Origin: Candidatus Sungbacteria bacterium RIFCSPLOWO2_01_FULL_47_10
GTDB taxonomy: Bacteria; Patescibacteriota; Minisyncoccia; Sungbacterales; GWA2-42-14
Direction: 5' to 3'
Length of the DNA: 10,080 nt
Assembly (NCBI GenBank): GCA_001820675.1
Contig: MHQO01000017.1
Location: 1,811 to 11,890 of the forward strand
Below are positions 1,338 through 8,565 of this stretch, piece after piece. Every line of letters begins with the position of its first letter. Position 1 is the first letter of the stretch. Made by a program: the position numbers and the translations under genes. Below the pieces are notes generated by a model. The model was not told the origin of the DNA, did not search any database, and worked only from the letters and a program-made list of their open reading frames with translations.

Positions 1338-2018
1338 CTATTCGCGATCCTTTACAAACACAAACACAGCTATCACTCCAGTCCTGTTTAGAAACGGAAT
1401 ATGCTCAACAACGGCATTAAAAACATGAGAAAAAAATGGAATATATTTCGGAAACGGCAGGAAATATTTCGATTGCCTCAATTCAAATTGATTCCTTCGC
1501 ATCTCGCCGATCAGCCGCCATACCGGTATCCGCTCATGCGGCCCTTCCGGCATTTTCATTCCGAATTTCTCGGAAAGTTCCAAAACGGGCTCCCATAAGG
1601 GATTTGCCATCGAAACGATTACGGACGCGCCTGGCTTTGCCATGCGGGAAATATTGGCAATGCTTTTCATAACGTCTTCCAAATGCTCAATGACGTCGGC
1701 AAGAAAGATAAAATCGAAGTGTTCGCCGGTTACGAACGAAGCGGCATTTCCCTGATGAAATTCCAATTGCGGTATTCCCGCATATTTTTTTGCGGCGCGC
1801 TTGATCATTTCTTCCGATATGTCGATCCCGACTCCGCGGGCCGGCTTCAATTCCGCTAAAATTTCTCCCGTTCCGCACCCGATTTCCAAAACCTTGGCGC
1901 CTACGGGAATAAGCCCGCGATATATCCTTTTTACCGCGTCATAATAATACCAATTTTTCCGCTTCCAAGAATCGTATTCGGGAGCGATATGATCGAAATG
2001 TTTTTGTACTTCACTCAT
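1338..2018 (-). CDS. Class I SAM-dependent methyltransferase
   Basis: A 226-residue Rossmann-fold methyltransferase. The SAM-binding motif I is VLEIGCGTGE (43-52) and the acidic end of strand 2 is GVGIDISEEM (62-71). The post-strand-4 segment is DFIFLADVIEHLEDV (102-116), typical of the Methyltransf_11/25 or UbiE-like group. The N-terminus (FDHIAPEYDSWKRKNWYYYDAV) and the region after LWEPVLELSEKFG (141-153) match the N-terminal domain of the fused protein upstream, so the two are paralogues. The ATG at 2018 has a Shine-Dalgarno AGGAG three bases upstream. The substrate is unknown; in this locus a sugar hydroxyl, lipid carrier or glycan end is plausible. It is transcribed just after the GxxExxY insertion, whose left inverted repeat ends 5 bp before its start codon. 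Confidence 0.9.
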   Translation of the reverse strand: MSEVQKHFDHIAPEYDSWKRKNWYYYDAVKRIYRGLIPVGAKVLEIGCGTGEILAELKPARGVGIDISEEMIKRAAKKYAGIPQLEFHQGNAASFVTGEHFDFIFLADVIEHLEDVMKSIANISRMAKPGASVIVSMANPLWEPVLELSEKFGMKMPEGPHERIPVWRLIGEMRRNQFELRQSKYFLPFPKYIPFFSHVFNAVVEHIPFLNRTGVIAVFVFVKDRE

Positions 2019-2021
2019 TTT

Positions 2022-2026
2022 CTCCT
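2022..2026 (-). promoter_or_regulatory. Shine-Dalgarno for methyltransferase, overlapping the element end
   Basis: AGGAG on the minus strand lies 3 nt before the ATG at 2018. Its AGG is also the last three bases of the terminal inverted repeat (CGTAGG) of the element at 2024-2474, so the element edge supplies part of the ribosome binding site. Most other starts in this window have no such site. Confidence 0.6.
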
Positions 2027-2056
2027 ACGAATTACGAATTAAGGCGAATTACGAAT
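2024..2056. repeat. Left bipartite terminal inverted repeat
   Basis: 14-bp outer block, 7-bp spacer and 12-bp inner block; the exact mirror of 2442-2474. It covers the end of the GxxExxY gene and reaches to 5 bp from the methyltransferase start codon. Confidence 0.8.
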
Positions 2057-2440
2057 ATTAATGATTCTTTTAAATTGCAATCCACGGGAGGTAAAATTTG
2101 CCAGTATCCCAAGCTGAATACCACTCATCAAAAGATAACTGTTCAACTGATCAATATTCTGCTTGAGAAATCGTTCACCTTTCTTTATCTCCAAAATAAG
2201 TTTACCCTCAATCAAAAAATCAACAACACCCTGCGCCACCTTCTGTCCATTCACAACACAATCAATTCGCACTTGTTCCCTGAATTCAATTCCGGCTTCA
2301 CGCAACAATGATGCAATTGCTCGCTGGTAATAGCGTTCATGATACTGCGCACCAAGTGAATTACTTACTTCAAACAATACGCAAACTGTTTGAAAACTCA
2401 ATTCTGGATATATAATATCTTTTCGTTTTAATTCATGCAT
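2039..2440 (-). CDS. GxxExxY protein, PD-(D/E)XK nuclease-like
   Basis: A 133-residue protein that matches the GxxExxY family (PDDEXK_3 type) along its length. The signature region is SLGAQYHERYYQRA (28-41), where E35 and Y38 align with the E and Y of the name; the second glycine of the usual GPGF/L segment is Q here. The nuclease-like core follows: D74 in GVVDFLIEGK, then E84-I-K86 (the E-x-K pair), Q98 in QLNSYL, and the family tail IQLGILANFTSRGLQFKRIIN. Usual family length is about 125-135, so it appears intact. The function of the family is not established; nuclease activity is inferred from the fold. No Shine-Dalgarno is visible. The gene lies wholly between inverted repeats and interrupts a glycan operon to which it seems unrelated. 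Codons look more AT-rich than the neighbours, in line with a separate origin. Confidence 0.88.
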   Translation of the reverse strand: MHELKRKDIIYPELSFQTVCVLFEVSNSLGAQYHERYYQRAIASLLREAGIEFREQVRIDCVVNGQKVAQGVVDFLIEGKLILEIKKGERFLKQNIDQLNSYLLMSGIQLGILANFTSRGLQFKRIINIRNSP

Positions 2441-2441
2441 T

Positions 2442-2474
2442 ATTCGTAATTCGAAAAAAATCGTAATTCGTAGG
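2442..2474. repeat. Right bipartite terminal inverted repeat
   Basis: 12-bp inner block (2442-2453), seven A residues, and 14-bp outer block (2461-2474) that ends directly before the TAA of the fused methyltransferase-GT2 gene. It starts one base upstream of the GxxExxY ATG, so any promoter or leader for that gene must lie in or before this repeat. Confidence 0.8.
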
Positions 2475-3881
2475 TTAAATGAACTTAATCTTTCGCATCG
2501 CGAATGCGGTCATTTTTAACAATAACAGCCCGTGCTTCCAGCGATCGATATTGGTCGCCCCGTATGTGCGGGCTTTATACCGAATAGGCATTTCAACAAT
2601 CTTCAAATTCATTTTAGCGGCGCCGAACAATAAATCAAAATCGCCGAATGGGTCAAAATCTCCGAAATACGAACGGCTCGCCGCAATTTTCTCGTAATCT
2701 TTTTTGAAAAGAACTTTCGTTCCGCATAGCGTATCTTTAATGCGCTGGTCCAGGAGCCATGTGAACATCGTGCTGAAAAACTTGTTGCCCAGCACATTCA
2801 GAAAACGCATTGCCTGCTTCTCCATAGGATATACGAGCCGCGAGCCGTTAACAAATTCCCCCCTTCCAGACCGGATCGCATCATAAAACTTCGGTAGATC
2901 CTCCGGGGGCACGGTGAGATCGGCATCTAAAATCATCAGAATATCGCCCTTCGCCAGGGAAAAACCAAGCCGCACCGCGTCTCCCTTCCCACGCCCCTTC
3001 TGGACTGCAAATCGGATATTCCATTTCCCCGCGTATTTTTCGGCAACGCGCTTAATCTCACCAAACGTATCGTCAGATGAATGCCCCTCAATAAAAATAA
3101 TTTCGTTATATGAGCCGAATTGCGGAAGACGGCGGACCGCCTCTTCGATATTTCCTTTTTCGTTTCGCGCGGGAATAACAACCGAAACGGAATAATCCCG
3201 AACATCATGCGGAATCGGACGCGCAACGGCATACTGAATCAAGCACAACCTGTTCACCACGGGAAGATTCGCAATAAACCGGTTTATGAAAGCAGAGAAG
3301 AACGGAAGATAAGCGGGAAAAAGCATTTTCTTGCCTCGTTTGACGATTTCAAACCCGCCCAAATAAAGAAGGTTTTCAATGTCGCGGTCGGAAAGCCAAT
3401 GCTGGCGCGGCTGTTTTGCCTTAAGGCCGAGTGTCTCCGCAAAAAGCAAAATCGGCTCCCAGAGATAATTATAATACGTTATCACGATTCTGCTTTTTTC
3501 GCCGCTGATTTTCCGCAGTCGCTGAAAAAAAGATTCAACATCGTGCAAATACCCAAGCAGGTCTGATGCAACGATATAACTAAACCGTTCACCTAGTGCA
3601 AGTTCTTCCGCATCCATCACGGCCCATTCGTACTGCGGATACTTCTTTTTTGCGATATCAATCATTTTCTGACTAATATCAATTCCGACGCCATGTTTCG
3701 GAGAAAGCAGGGAAAGAAGCTCTCCCGTGCCGGACCCTATTTCAAGAACGGTTTCTCCGTCCGGAACCAAAAAATCTACAAGATCCTCAAGCGTCTTGTG
3801 GTAATACCAATTTCGCTTCTTCCAGTAATCACGCTCGTCAGCGCGAGCGTCAAAGTAACTTTGTAAAGAAGAGTGAGCCAT
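2475..3881 (-). CDS. Fused SAM methyltransferase - GT2 glycosyltransferase
   Basis: A 468-residue two-domain protein. Residues 1 to about 215 are a class I methyltransferase: motif I VLEIGSGTGELL (45-56), GVGIDISQKM (64-73), then a conserved LWEPILLFAETLG (140-152). After a short linker (about 221-231), residues 232-468 form a GT2 domain: SVVIPARNE (233-241), IEGHSSDDT (264-272), KGRGKGDAVRLGF (295-307), DADLTVPPEDLP (319-330, DxD) and CGTKVLF (386-392). The GT2 half resembles polyprenyl-phosphate sugar synthases. The protein is continuous across the point where the separate methyltransferase (1338-2018) and GT2 (564-1259) are split, and both halves are paralogues of those genes in the same order. 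Each half keeps its key motifs, so both may be active. Likely role: sugar transfer coupled to methylation during glycan or lipid-carrier processing. The acceptor is unknown. The gene starts 53 bp after fcl ends. Confidence 0.92.
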   Translation of the reverse strand: MAHSSLQSYFDARADERDYWKKRNWYYHKTLEDLVDFLVPDGETVLEIGSGTGELLSLLSPKHGVGIDISQKMIDIAKKKYPQYEWAVMDAEELALGERFSYIVASDLLGYLHDVESFFQRLRKISGEKSRIVITYYNYLWEPILLFAETLGLKAKQPRQHWLSDRDIENLLYLGGFEIVKRGKKMLFPAYLPFFSAFINRFIANLPVVNRLCLIQYAVARPIPHDVRDYSVSVVIPARNEKGNIEEAVRRLPQFGSYNEIIFIEGHSSDDTFGEIKRVAEKYAGKWNIRFAVQKGRGKGDAVRLGFSLAKGDILMILDADLTVPPEDLPKFYDAIRSGRGEFVNGSRLVYPMEKQAMRFLNVLGNKFFSTMFTWLLDQRIKDTLCGTKVLFKKDYEKIAASRSYFGDFDPFGDFDLLFGAAKMNLKIVEMPIRYKARTYGATNIDRWKHGLLLLKMTAFAMRKIKFI

Positions 3882-3934: not shown

Positions 3935-4962
<1,028 letters not shown>

Positions 4963-4983
4963 AAAATCAGGAAATGGTCATAT

Positions 4984-7236: not shown

Positions 7237-7299
7237 CCTACGAATTACGAATACAATTACGTTTTCATTCGTAATTCGGCGACATTCGTAACTCGTAGG
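7237..7299. mobile_element. 63-bp gene-less palindrome with the same ends as the GxxExxY element
   Basis: The left end CCTACGAATTACGA (7237-7250) is identical to the left end of the element at 2024-2474. The right arm is ATTCGTAATTCG (7267-7278), a 7-bp spacer, then TCGTAACTCGTAGG (7286-7299), one mismatch from the other element's right end with the same 12-7-14 layout. The left inner block is degraded to AATTACG (7255-7261). No reading frame is present. ATT occurs directly outside both ends, a possible 3-bp target duplication. This is what a MITE-like, non-autonomous copy would look like. It sits in the 154-bp gap between two GT4 genes; the rest of that gap (7197-7236, 7300-7350) holds only fragments of similar AT-rich repeat. 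Confidence 0.6.
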
Positions 7300-7350
7300 A
7301 TTAACATTCGCAGTTCGCCGAATTAGCATTCCATTCGCATGGCGTTGGCA

Positions 7351-8487
7351 TCACATATTGTCACATTTCTCAAACCCCTCCCTCATTTTCGCCAGATATT
7401 CTTCTTTTGCTGGCGCTGCGATCTTTTTTGAAAACTCCTCCGCATTCTGCTTCAACTTTTCAAGATAACCGGTGTGCGATAAAAGAACATTCAATTTCCG
7501 CATAATTTCTTCCTCGTTCGGACCCTCACCCAAAAGCATGCCGGTTTTTCCTTCCTGTATGATCTCACGCGCGATACCGACATCGGCTGATAAAACAGGC
7601 AGGCCGGAAGCAAGTGCTTCGACAACGGTTCGTCCGTAGCCCTCGTAGTTTGACGATATAAGAAACAAATCAGCCGTTTTATAATACGACAAGAGTGTTT
7701 CGTAGGATACCGCGCCTTCGAAGCGGATTCCGTCTTTTTCGTATTTCTTTTGTAATGCCGCGCGCAACGACCCATCGCCGACCACAAGCAAAAGTACTGA
7801 AGGAAATTGCCCGGCATATGACCGAACCGCGCGACAGACCGCCTCAATATTCTTCTCACGAGTAATACGGGATGCCATGAGAATGATCGGGTATGCTTCG
7901 GGATATTTTTTGTGGAGATCCGTGACCGGCTCATGAACACGCACTCGCGCGATATCAACAAATACGGGGAGGATGGAGATTTTTGATTGTGGAATGTTGA
8001 GCGTGGAAATTAAAGAATTTTTTATGCGCGCGCTTACAACTCGAATGCATTCCGCATTTTGTACCGACCGGCAATACAGACGATATCGGATATAGTTTTT
8101 AAGAGATTCGCGGCGGAAAAATGGGCTCAAAAAATCAGTGTGGATTTGCGCTTGAAACGGAATGCCAAATCGCTTCTTGAGGAAGATCGCCGGTATATTC
8201 GTAAAGGCGTCCTGGGAAGTAATGTATGAATCATGAATCATGAATCCTGAATCATGAATAATGCGACGGCCGATTCTATAAGCGCCCAAAAAATAAAACG
8301 GCTTAAAAACCGTGTTGGTGGGATATGCCCGAACCTCTTCGGAAATCTGTTTTTCCTTGAATCCGGGAGCGGTATGGATAATAATGTGCAATTCGTCCAA
8401 AACCGATCCGTATTCTTTCATCCGTTTCTCCGATTCGCTTCCATCCGAAAGAATGGATTGATCGATGCTGAACATTAAAACTTTCAT
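7351..8487 (-). CDS. GT4 family glycosyltransferase with an in-frame heptamer array
   Basis: A 378-residue GT-B enzyme of family GT4. The N-terminal domain begins MKVLMFSIDQSILSDGSESEKR and holds ITSQDAFTN (89-97) and QIHTDFLSPFF (114-124). The C-terminal donor site has SRITREKNI (206-214, with R207 and K212), VVGDGS (235-240), FEGAVSYETL (256-265) and the complete E-x7-E motif EGYGRTVVE (282-290), followed by ALASGLPVLS. It should be a retaining transferase acting on the cytoplasmic side. Residues 76-89, including HDSGFMIHDSYI, are encoded by five 7-bp tandem repeats (8227-8261), so a change in copy number not divisible by three would shift the frame. The ATG at 8487 has no Shine-Dalgarno. 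The gene follows the nucleotidyltransferase after a 79-bp gap that contains a REP-like repeat. Confidence 0.92.
   Translation of the reverse strand: MKVLMFSIDQSILSDGSESEKRMKEYGSVLDELHIIIHTAPGFKEKQISEEVRAYPTNTVFKPFYFLGAYRIGRRIIHDSGFMIHDSYITSQDAFTNIPAIFLKKRFGIPFQAQIHTDFLSPFFRRESLKNYIRYRLYCRSVQNAECIRVVSARIKNSLISTLNIPQSKISILPVFVDIARVRVHEPVTDLHKKYPEAYPIILMASRITREKNIEAVCRAVRSYAGQFPSVLLLVVGDGSLRAALQKKYEKDGIRFEGAVSYETLLSYYKTADLFLISSNYEGYGRTVVEALASGLPVLSADVGIAREIIQEGKTGMLLGEGPNEEEIMRKLNVLLSHTGYLEKLKQNAEEFSKKIAAPAKEEYLAKMREGFEKCDNM
8227..8261. repeat. Five tandem heptamers inside a GT4 gene
   Basis: Five units in exact 7-bp register: TGAATCA, TGAATCA, TGAATCC, TGAATCA, TGAATAA (plus strand). Three units equal 21 bp, so the peptide HDS.. 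recurs every seven residues. Gain or loss of one or two units would truncate the protein; three would keep the frame. Confidence 0.85.
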
Positions 8488-8495
8488 ATTGTTAT

Positions 8496-8565
8496 GTCAT
8501 GCCAGCGAAAGCTGTGGCGCCGCGCTCCGCCATAGCGGCTACGCGACGGCGAGCGCAGGAATGAC
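8496..8565. repeat. REP-like palindrome with GC-rich insert
   Basis: The outer ends GTCATGCCAGCGAAAGCT (8496-8513) and GGCGAGCGCAGGAATGAC (8548-8565) are of the same type as 4892-4962. The middle (about 8514-8547) is GC-rich with its own pairing (CGCGCTCCGCC against GGCGAGCGC, and TAGCGGCTA). It begins one base beyond the nucleotidyltransferase stop codon (TAG, 8567-8569) and fills most of the gap to the next gene. Confidence 0.75.

Follow-up and report, generated by a model that had tools for sequence, protein, structure and literature searches.

The window analysed here, a 10,080-nt stretch of a Candidatus Sungbacteria genome, probably holds a complete, small and autonomous mobile palindromic element, in which a PD-(D/E)XK nuclease of the GxxExxY family would be the mobility enzyme. 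That the two arms and the gene between them form one mobile unit is very likely, because a relative has an empty site, the arms vary together with the gene, gene-less copies are dispersed, and related elements occur in frame within proteins.

A nuclease gene packaged between perfect inverted repeats

The GxxExxY gene (PF13366) is enclosed by inverted repeats in two blocks of 14 and 12 bp (Table 1). Positions 2024-2037 (14 nt) and 2461-2474 are exact reverse complements of each other, as are 2045-2056 (12 nt) and 2442-2453, and each arm has a 7-nt spacer (2038-2044 and 2454-2460). The ATG lies one base off one arm and the TAA within the spacer of the other. The original prediction, made from the letters of this stretch, had described both this bipartite architecture and a 133-residue protein starting one base from one repeat and ending inside the other, and the coordinates confirm the two descriptions. 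It overlooked a gene-less palindrome at 7237-7299, for which the single-strand DNA fold of 7237-7300 has z = -5.84. With at most one mismatch, CGAATTACGA has eight matches in the window against a mean of 1.5 and a maximum of 5 in 200 shuffled sequences, so the repeat is more abundant there than expected by chance. The window also contains an inverted pair of another kind (CAGCTTTCGCTGGAATGAC-type; 4942-4974 and 8482-8514, 33 nt, 82% complementary, 3.5 kb apart), which may belong to a second dispersed repeat family.

Table 1. Coordinates of the element, its flanking genes and a gene-less copy within the window.
Feature	Position	Strand	Remarks
3' arm of the gene	2024..2056	+	CCTACGAATTACGA, 7-nt spacer, CGAATTACGAAT
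5' arm of the gene	2442..2474	+	12- and 14-nt blocks, exact reverse complements of the other arm; 7-nt spacer
GxxExxY / PDDEXK_3 gene, 133 aa	2039..2440	-	E, D, ExK and QxxxY residues found
Junction of element and downstream gene	2011..2030	-	end CGTAGG, then AGAAA, then ATG; end at Shine-Dalgarno position
TAA stop of upstream gene 2475-3881	2475..2477	-	adjoins element directly
Methyltransferase, one flank of insertion site	1338..2018	-	G001 counterpart 57% identical, 15 bp past other flank
Methyltransferase-glycosyltransferase fusion, other flank of insertion site	2475..3881	-	
Gene-less copy of the element's palindrome, 63 bp	7237..7299	+	single-strand DNA fold z = -5.84

The only profiles matched by the protein are PF13366 (82.5 bits, cut-off 22) and TIGR04256 (82.0 bits, cut-off 35). 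In the family alignments G, E, D, E-x-K, Q and Y are invariant or nearly so, and the putative PD-(D/E)XK catalytic residues are thus conserved in GxxExxY. The structure model (pLDDT 93.3) is nearest to 4ic1, and the first Foldseek matches (4ic1, LHK-Exo and lambda exonuclease) are DNA nucleases; restriction enzymes, MGME1 and Hjc rank close behind 4ic1 in the structural list, from which no finer kinship was drawn, and tRNA splicing endonucleases follow lower down. Cas4 has conserved cysteines for an iron-sulphur cluster. Unlike Cas4 and RecB-type nucleases, the GxxExxY protein is only 133 aa long, and cysteine is absent from the invariant and nearly invariant columns of two alignments (A1 and A3).

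In the source genome (G000; 84 contigs, 1.1 Mb), CCTACGAATTACGA is matched 14 times when at most one mismatch is allowed, and its backward control not at all. PF13366 occurs there in three complete genes and a short remnant. Inverted repeats flank every one of the complete genes, and the repeat differs from gene to gene: CGAATTACGAAT in the window, AATCTACAAAT for the gene on C2 and TCTCGAAT for the gene on C84, the last of which sits in frame inside gatB in a single 655-aa open frame. The remnant, 37 C-terminal GxxExxY residues scoring below the cut-off (L018:1501-1611), is perhaps a decayed copy. The gatB gene with the GxxExxY insert (L082:1447-3411) contains a further short insert, also in frame (peptide EIRNPKSEILNN...).

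Relatives carry the flanking genes without the element

Comparison of matching loci, the check proposed with the original prediction, recovered the same gene pair without the unit in two relatives. In G001 the upstream gene (61% identical) and the methyltransferase (57% identical) lie 15 bp apart, an empty site. In G004 the two genes are 75% and 65% identical and stand 189 bp apart without the GxxExxY unit; one gene beyond the site there is a gene-less copy of the window's repeat. Since these two relatives belong to other genera, the exact boundaries of the insertion cannot be read from them. G007 has a different ORF between the two flanking genes. The matching site in G004 (L293) is occupied by another, unrelated repeat (GTCATTCTGAGC...GGATGACA). 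Elements may have landed at this site more than once.

Inverted repeats enclose most of the GxxExxY genes scored

We collected 65 PF13366 matches from 35 of 142 related genomes, the source genome included, and counted 62 of them after dropping the two halves of a broken G131 gene and the 37-residue G000 remnant. Enclosure was scored as the best local inverted repeat between the two flanks, with a threshold of 15. This threshold was reached by 46 of the 62 matches, against 5 of 121 neighbouring ORFs (Fisher 8e-24); the other 16 matches fell below it. The control ORFs were chosen mechanically (90-300 aa, non-overlapping) from the same stretches as the GxxExxY loci, and all five with strong repeats turned out to be PF05635 genes, so that the control without PF05635 stands at 0 of 116. 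Flanks paired across genomes reached 15 in 11 of 364 cases. In named genomes, scanned with an alignment of six sequences, 80 loci were kept and 65 of these reached 15, against 34 of 473 cross-locus pairs. Where the flanks were complete (160 nt on both sides), 45 of 60 matches in relatives and 63 of 75 named loci reached the threshold. The expectation that other GxxExxY genes would often be enclosed by such repeats was therefore borne out in both sets, and chance flanking repeats are ruled out by the neighbour-ORF, cross-genome and cross-locus controls.

The majority of the named loci are labelled as Patescibacteria groups. Loci with other labels, which come from MAG contigs where mis-binning is possible, reached the threshold in Scalindua (30), WOR-1 (25), Methylovulum (21), two of three Bacteroidetes (20 and 15; the third, cut by a contig end, scored 4), three Saganbacteria (20, 19.5 and 15.5) and one Margulisbacteria locus (16.5); a second Margulisbacteria locus (13.5) and an Elusimicrobia locus with a short flank (10) fell below it.

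PF05635 loci were also scored separately: 21 of 30 (L083-L112, from a larger number of matches) reached 15. PF05635 genes between inverted repeats were seen at L058:9033-9392, L058:5162-5527, L059:5272-5658, L049:639-1004, L055:4859-5227 and among L083-L112, and many of the repeats flanking them are built of short repeated units.

Arms are built of iterated units and vary with the protein

Judged by eye, an arm typically consists of four short units in two pairs, the units being alike within one element and different between elements; examples are TACGAAT (the window's unit), TACTAAT, TGCGAAT and ACGCAGAA. The comparison covered 21 gene-less copies, a subset of the listed places in four genomes, all with the window's repeat (the window's own copy does not follow this layout). 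Unit positions were complementary in 537 of 567 cases, and spacers in 19 of 105, below the 34% for unrelated spacers (p 1.6e-4). The spacer was 5 nt long on the left in 19 of the 21 copies and on the right in 18, and copies were often loopless. When folded singly with DNA parameters, five copies form hairpins (z -5.8 to -10.2), three with a 5x5 internal loop and two, including the window's, with an irregular one. The spacer mismatch could also have another cause, avoidance of long perfect palindromes, given that complementary spacers do occur in some gene-bearing elements.

Similarity between arms follows similarity between proteins (Mantel rho 0.35, null SD 0.05, p<=0.0005) across 1142 pairs of the 49 of 62 elements scoring at least 14, leaving out pairs from one genome and those whose two frames are both longer than 700 aa. 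The nearest of the 62 proteins to the window's is that of G079, 62% identical and from another family, and its repeat is identical. Further afield, the gene at L231, from a MAG labelled Scalindua, is 53% identical and shares the repeat, and those at L193 and L221, from MAGs labelled Bacteroidetes, are 57-60% identical and have a variant of it.

Gene-less copies are scattered, and many end just before start codons

Gene-less copies of about 64 bp are dispersed, chiefly in genomes with GxxExxY genes, and orphan populations occur. We counted three patterns in the 142 genomes with at most one mismatch, own arms included. CCTACGAATTACGAAT has 53 matches in G079, 23 in G131, 13 in G000, nine each in G005 and G104, seven each in G004 and G018 and 0-2 in the remaining genomes, and its backward control has none throughout. 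For ACACTAATCCACGAAT there are 27 matches in G015, 12 in G018 and at most two elsewhere (control: one in three genomes), and for TCAACGAATAACGAAT 40 in G067, 38 in G011, 29 in G015, 17 in G100, 11 in G010, seven in G007 and at most four elsewhere (backward control: one in two genomes). Seven genomes have the searched pattern, within one mismatch, in the arms of their own GxxExxY genes: G079 (53 matches), G000 (13), G015 (27), G018 (12), G100 (17), G011 (38) and G007 (7). With a threshold of five copies, picked once the counts were known, CCTACGAATTACGAAT is abundant in 7 of 35 genomes with PF13366 versus 0 of 107 without (p 3.4e-5), ACACTAATCCACGAAT in 2 of 35 versus 0 of 107 (p 0.06) and TCAACGAATAACGAAT in 4 of 35 versus 2 of 107 (p 0.03).

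A strict pairing of arms and gene is disfavoured, because G067 (40 matches to TCAACGAATAACGAAT; L309) and G010 (11) have no PF13366 match, and because G131, G005, G104, G004 and G018 hold the window's repeat or a one-base variant of it yet have PF13366 genes with other arms. The G067 repeats are either an orphan population or served by another enzyme. In G025 the pattern occurs on one side of the GxxExxY gene, with just four matches in the genome. At L012:1501-1680 a copy of an end of the window's repeat stands beside an unrelated palindrome (GTCATTCCGGCGAATGCCGGAATCC...), an arrangement of nested small repeats.

Fourteen of the 17 gene-less copies examined in G079 end in CCTACGAAT / ATTGGTAGG, like the gene-bearing copy. 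No target duplication of at least 4 nt was found in any of 22 gene-less copies of one repeat, chosen from the listed places in two genomes (an element with a duplicated unit was counted once), and a DDE-type transposon or classical MITE was rejected on this ground. An ATG lies 5-23 nt beyond an end in 17 of the 22 copies, compared with 1547 of 6600 random positions from the same loci (23%; p 1.5e-7), where an ATG was counted when its ORF spans at least 50 aa or runs off the stretch. These copies are 16 of 17 in G079 and one of five in G000. The window's element likewise ends CGTAGG-AGAAA-ATG, and we infer that an element end may act as a Shine-Dalgarno sequence.

Related elements lie in frame within core proteins

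Ten of the 62 matches lie in frames of more than 200 aa, and in nine the GxxExxY domain is inside a recognised protein: LepA (five), RecG (two, at differing sites), GatB (one) and a glycosyltransferase (one). The LepA, RecG and GatB hosts score above the curated cut-off and the glycosyltransferase below cut-offs, and in all nine fusions the frame is open throughout. A 274-aa open frame with no recognised host (G015:C4) was excluded from the in-frame count. The domain is found in 5 of 29 LepA rows and 1 of 21 GatB rows (20 genes) among the matches listed. In LepA and GatB, core proteins with a whole nuclease domain in a loop, tolerance of the insert is directly testable, because no second intact copy of either is among the matches listed for the insert-bearing genomes.

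Relatives without the domain mostly have a short loop at the LepA or GatB site. Twelve loops without the domain are at least 60 nt long, of which five (L125, L136, L137, L142 and L152) exceed every control window of their own gene in self-complementarity. The clearest case is the LepA loop of G011, an in-frame gene-less palindrome of the repeat that flanks the GxxExxY gene of that genome. The idea that all the longer LepA and GatB loops are gene-less palindromes was rejected, as 7 of the 12 do not exceed every control window.

Some LepA inserts are more alike than their hosts. Identity between the G062 insert and the inserts of G004 and G005 is 83-84%, versus 51% for LepA after the insert and 70-75% for the conserved part before it, and the LepA family of G062 differs from that of G004 and G005. 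In pairs with the G131 LepA the inserts are 65-70% identical and the hosts 48-51%, and in pairs with that of G111 55-58% and 47-55%; the excess, limited to some LepA pairs, is clear for G062 against G004 and G005, moderate for G131 and weak for G111. A tree of the 62 domains, which has few columns and many open forks, groups four LepA inserts (94) with the G011 RecG and G111 LepA inserts beside them, and places the GatB, other RecG and glycosyltransferase inserts elsewhere. The simplest reading is spread at the same site together with several separate in-frame insertions. Neither the inserts in core proteins, nor the same-site spread in LepA, nor the ends at the Shine-Dalgarno position had been foreseen by the original prediction.

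Proposed mechanism and competing explanations

We propose an element made of two inverted arms of repeated short units (TACGAAT in the window) around a minimal PD-(D/E)XK nuclease gene. The nuclease would recognise its own arms once these have folded into a hairpin or cruciform and would cut at that place, and copies would reach new sites by transposition or enter the same site through homing-type repair; both may occur, and these data do not distinguish them. Copies of low cost would then persist, as in-frame inserts in protein loops or as inserts before start codons, where GTAGG ends could serve as a Shine-Dalgarno sequence. The earlier suggestion that GxxExxY proteins are the enzyme of a tiny mobile system thus stands for the mobility of the unit, given the empty site and the dispersal; the protein's own part is a candidate role, which on the comparisons above we consider reasonably likely. 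More broadly, the chances seem about even that GxxExxY genes mark a widespread class of autonomous palindromic elements that move their own iterated-unit ends, a class that would include enzyme-bearing inserts resembling Rickettsia palindromic elements, homing without intron or intein into LepA, RecG and GatB loops, and Shine-Dalgarno-like ends before starts, and for which PF05635 may be a second, unrelated enzyme.

The arms could instead be MITE- or REP-like palindromes moved by some other enzyme, with GxxExxY, like PF05635, a passenger or maintenance nuclease. Such an arrangement would fit the orphan repeat populations of G067 and G010 and the occurrence of PF05635, an unrelated small protein family, in similar inverted repeats. 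We consider it unlikely in view of the co-variation of arms and GxxExxY protein, the conserved catalytic residues and the lack of room for a second gene between the arms of the window's unit.

It is also doubtful that homing accounts for everything, with GxxExxY cutting element-free alleles, repair of the break copying the element in, and gene-less palindromes left over as deletion remnants. The LepA inserts argue for homing, being at one site in five genomes and in some cases more alike than their hosts, as do the in-frame positions beside GTPase and helicase motifs, which we take to resemble intein sites. However, the gene-less copies lie at many non-homologous sites and are often loopless, and random deletion is an unlikely source for them because they keep full-length ends and a near-fixed 5-nt spacer.

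An element acting at the RNA level, whose arms fold in transcripts and are processed like the intervening sequences (IVS) of 23S rRNA while the protein binds or cuts RNA, is improbable. The arms do fold strongly (with DNA parameters), similar repeats enclose PF05635, which is the protein family of 23S IVS, and a Coxiella IVS is reported to have heptamer repeats and a terminal stem of 28 bp (PMC4990558). Against this, an Rfam search of the window brought no family to threshold, rRNA families included; the frame remains open in all nine in-frame fusions, which would fit their being translated; and DNA nucleases lead the Foldseek matches, though tRNA splicing endonucleases appear among them. Finally, intergenic hairpins are common, but that ordinary ones (terminators or regulatory stems) flank a small gene here by chance is highly improbable given the neighbouring ORFs (5 of 121, all PF05635) and cross-genome flank pairs (11 of 364), and is contradicted also by the arm-protein co-variation, the named-genome scan and the empty site.

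Relation to known systems

RAYT proteins are Y1/HUH tyrosine transposases. The GxxExxY enzyme is of the PD-(D/E)XK type and has no Y1/HUH match. The comparison with RAYT/REP made in the original prediction holds as an analogy, in that these elements carry their own repeat and have dispersed gene-less copies; they work like RAYT/REP and are no member of it. RAYT/REP (REPIN) systems have dispersed palindromes, a lone gene flanked by matching inverted repeats, pairing of repeat and protein, and orphan repeats (see also PMC2817692, PMC3116915, PMC8266576). GxxExxY elements likewise have dispersed palindromes that share their ends with a lone gene. They differ in having arms that repeat units of 7-8 nt, whose spacer is unpaired in the gene-less copies studied, and in that related elements also lie in frame within proteins.

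Rickettsia palindromic elements (RPE) are described as palindromes in frame in protein-coding genes, about 150 bp long with an ORF for a conserved peptide (PMC10969869). Related GxxExxY elements and gene-less loops are similarly in frame in coding genes (the window's copy is intergenic); unlike RPE, some copies encode a conserved nuclease, and the likeness drawn here is one of layout. As with homing endonuclease genes, a nuclease gene occupies one conserved LepA site in distant hosts, some pairs exceeding host identity; the insert differs in that the frame runs on across it and no trace of an intron is seen, and related gene-less copies scatter elsewhere. The 23S rRNA IVS described in PMC4990558 has one small ORF in a terminal inverted repeat, with heptamer repeats beside the ORF. 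The IVS with S23p (PF05635) resembles the present elements in having a small ORF in an inverted repeat, and PF05635 genes here lie in similar repeats; the window's protein, however, is PF13366, and no rRNA family was matched in the window.

Among the matches listed in a literature search of titles and beginnings of abstracts, which ran without preprints and most subscription papers, none described GxxExxY genes in palindromic elements. If the proposed reading is right, the scattered and unexplained GxxExxY family would gain a function, RAYT/REP would gain a counterpart built on a nuclease, and palindromic repeats found in frame within proteins would have a candidate enzyme.

GxxExxY had no match in a phage collection and two weak homologues in a plasmid collection. 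The Persicobacter homologue has no inverted repeat (score 6.5). In Sphingomonas parapaucimobilis (L303:1483-1911) the homologue is situated between fabD and fabG, and its inverted repeat (TTCACGCGAAG...) scores 20; the record has just this one pair of ends, and no dispersal was seen in it. This species is a possible cultured model for the unit.
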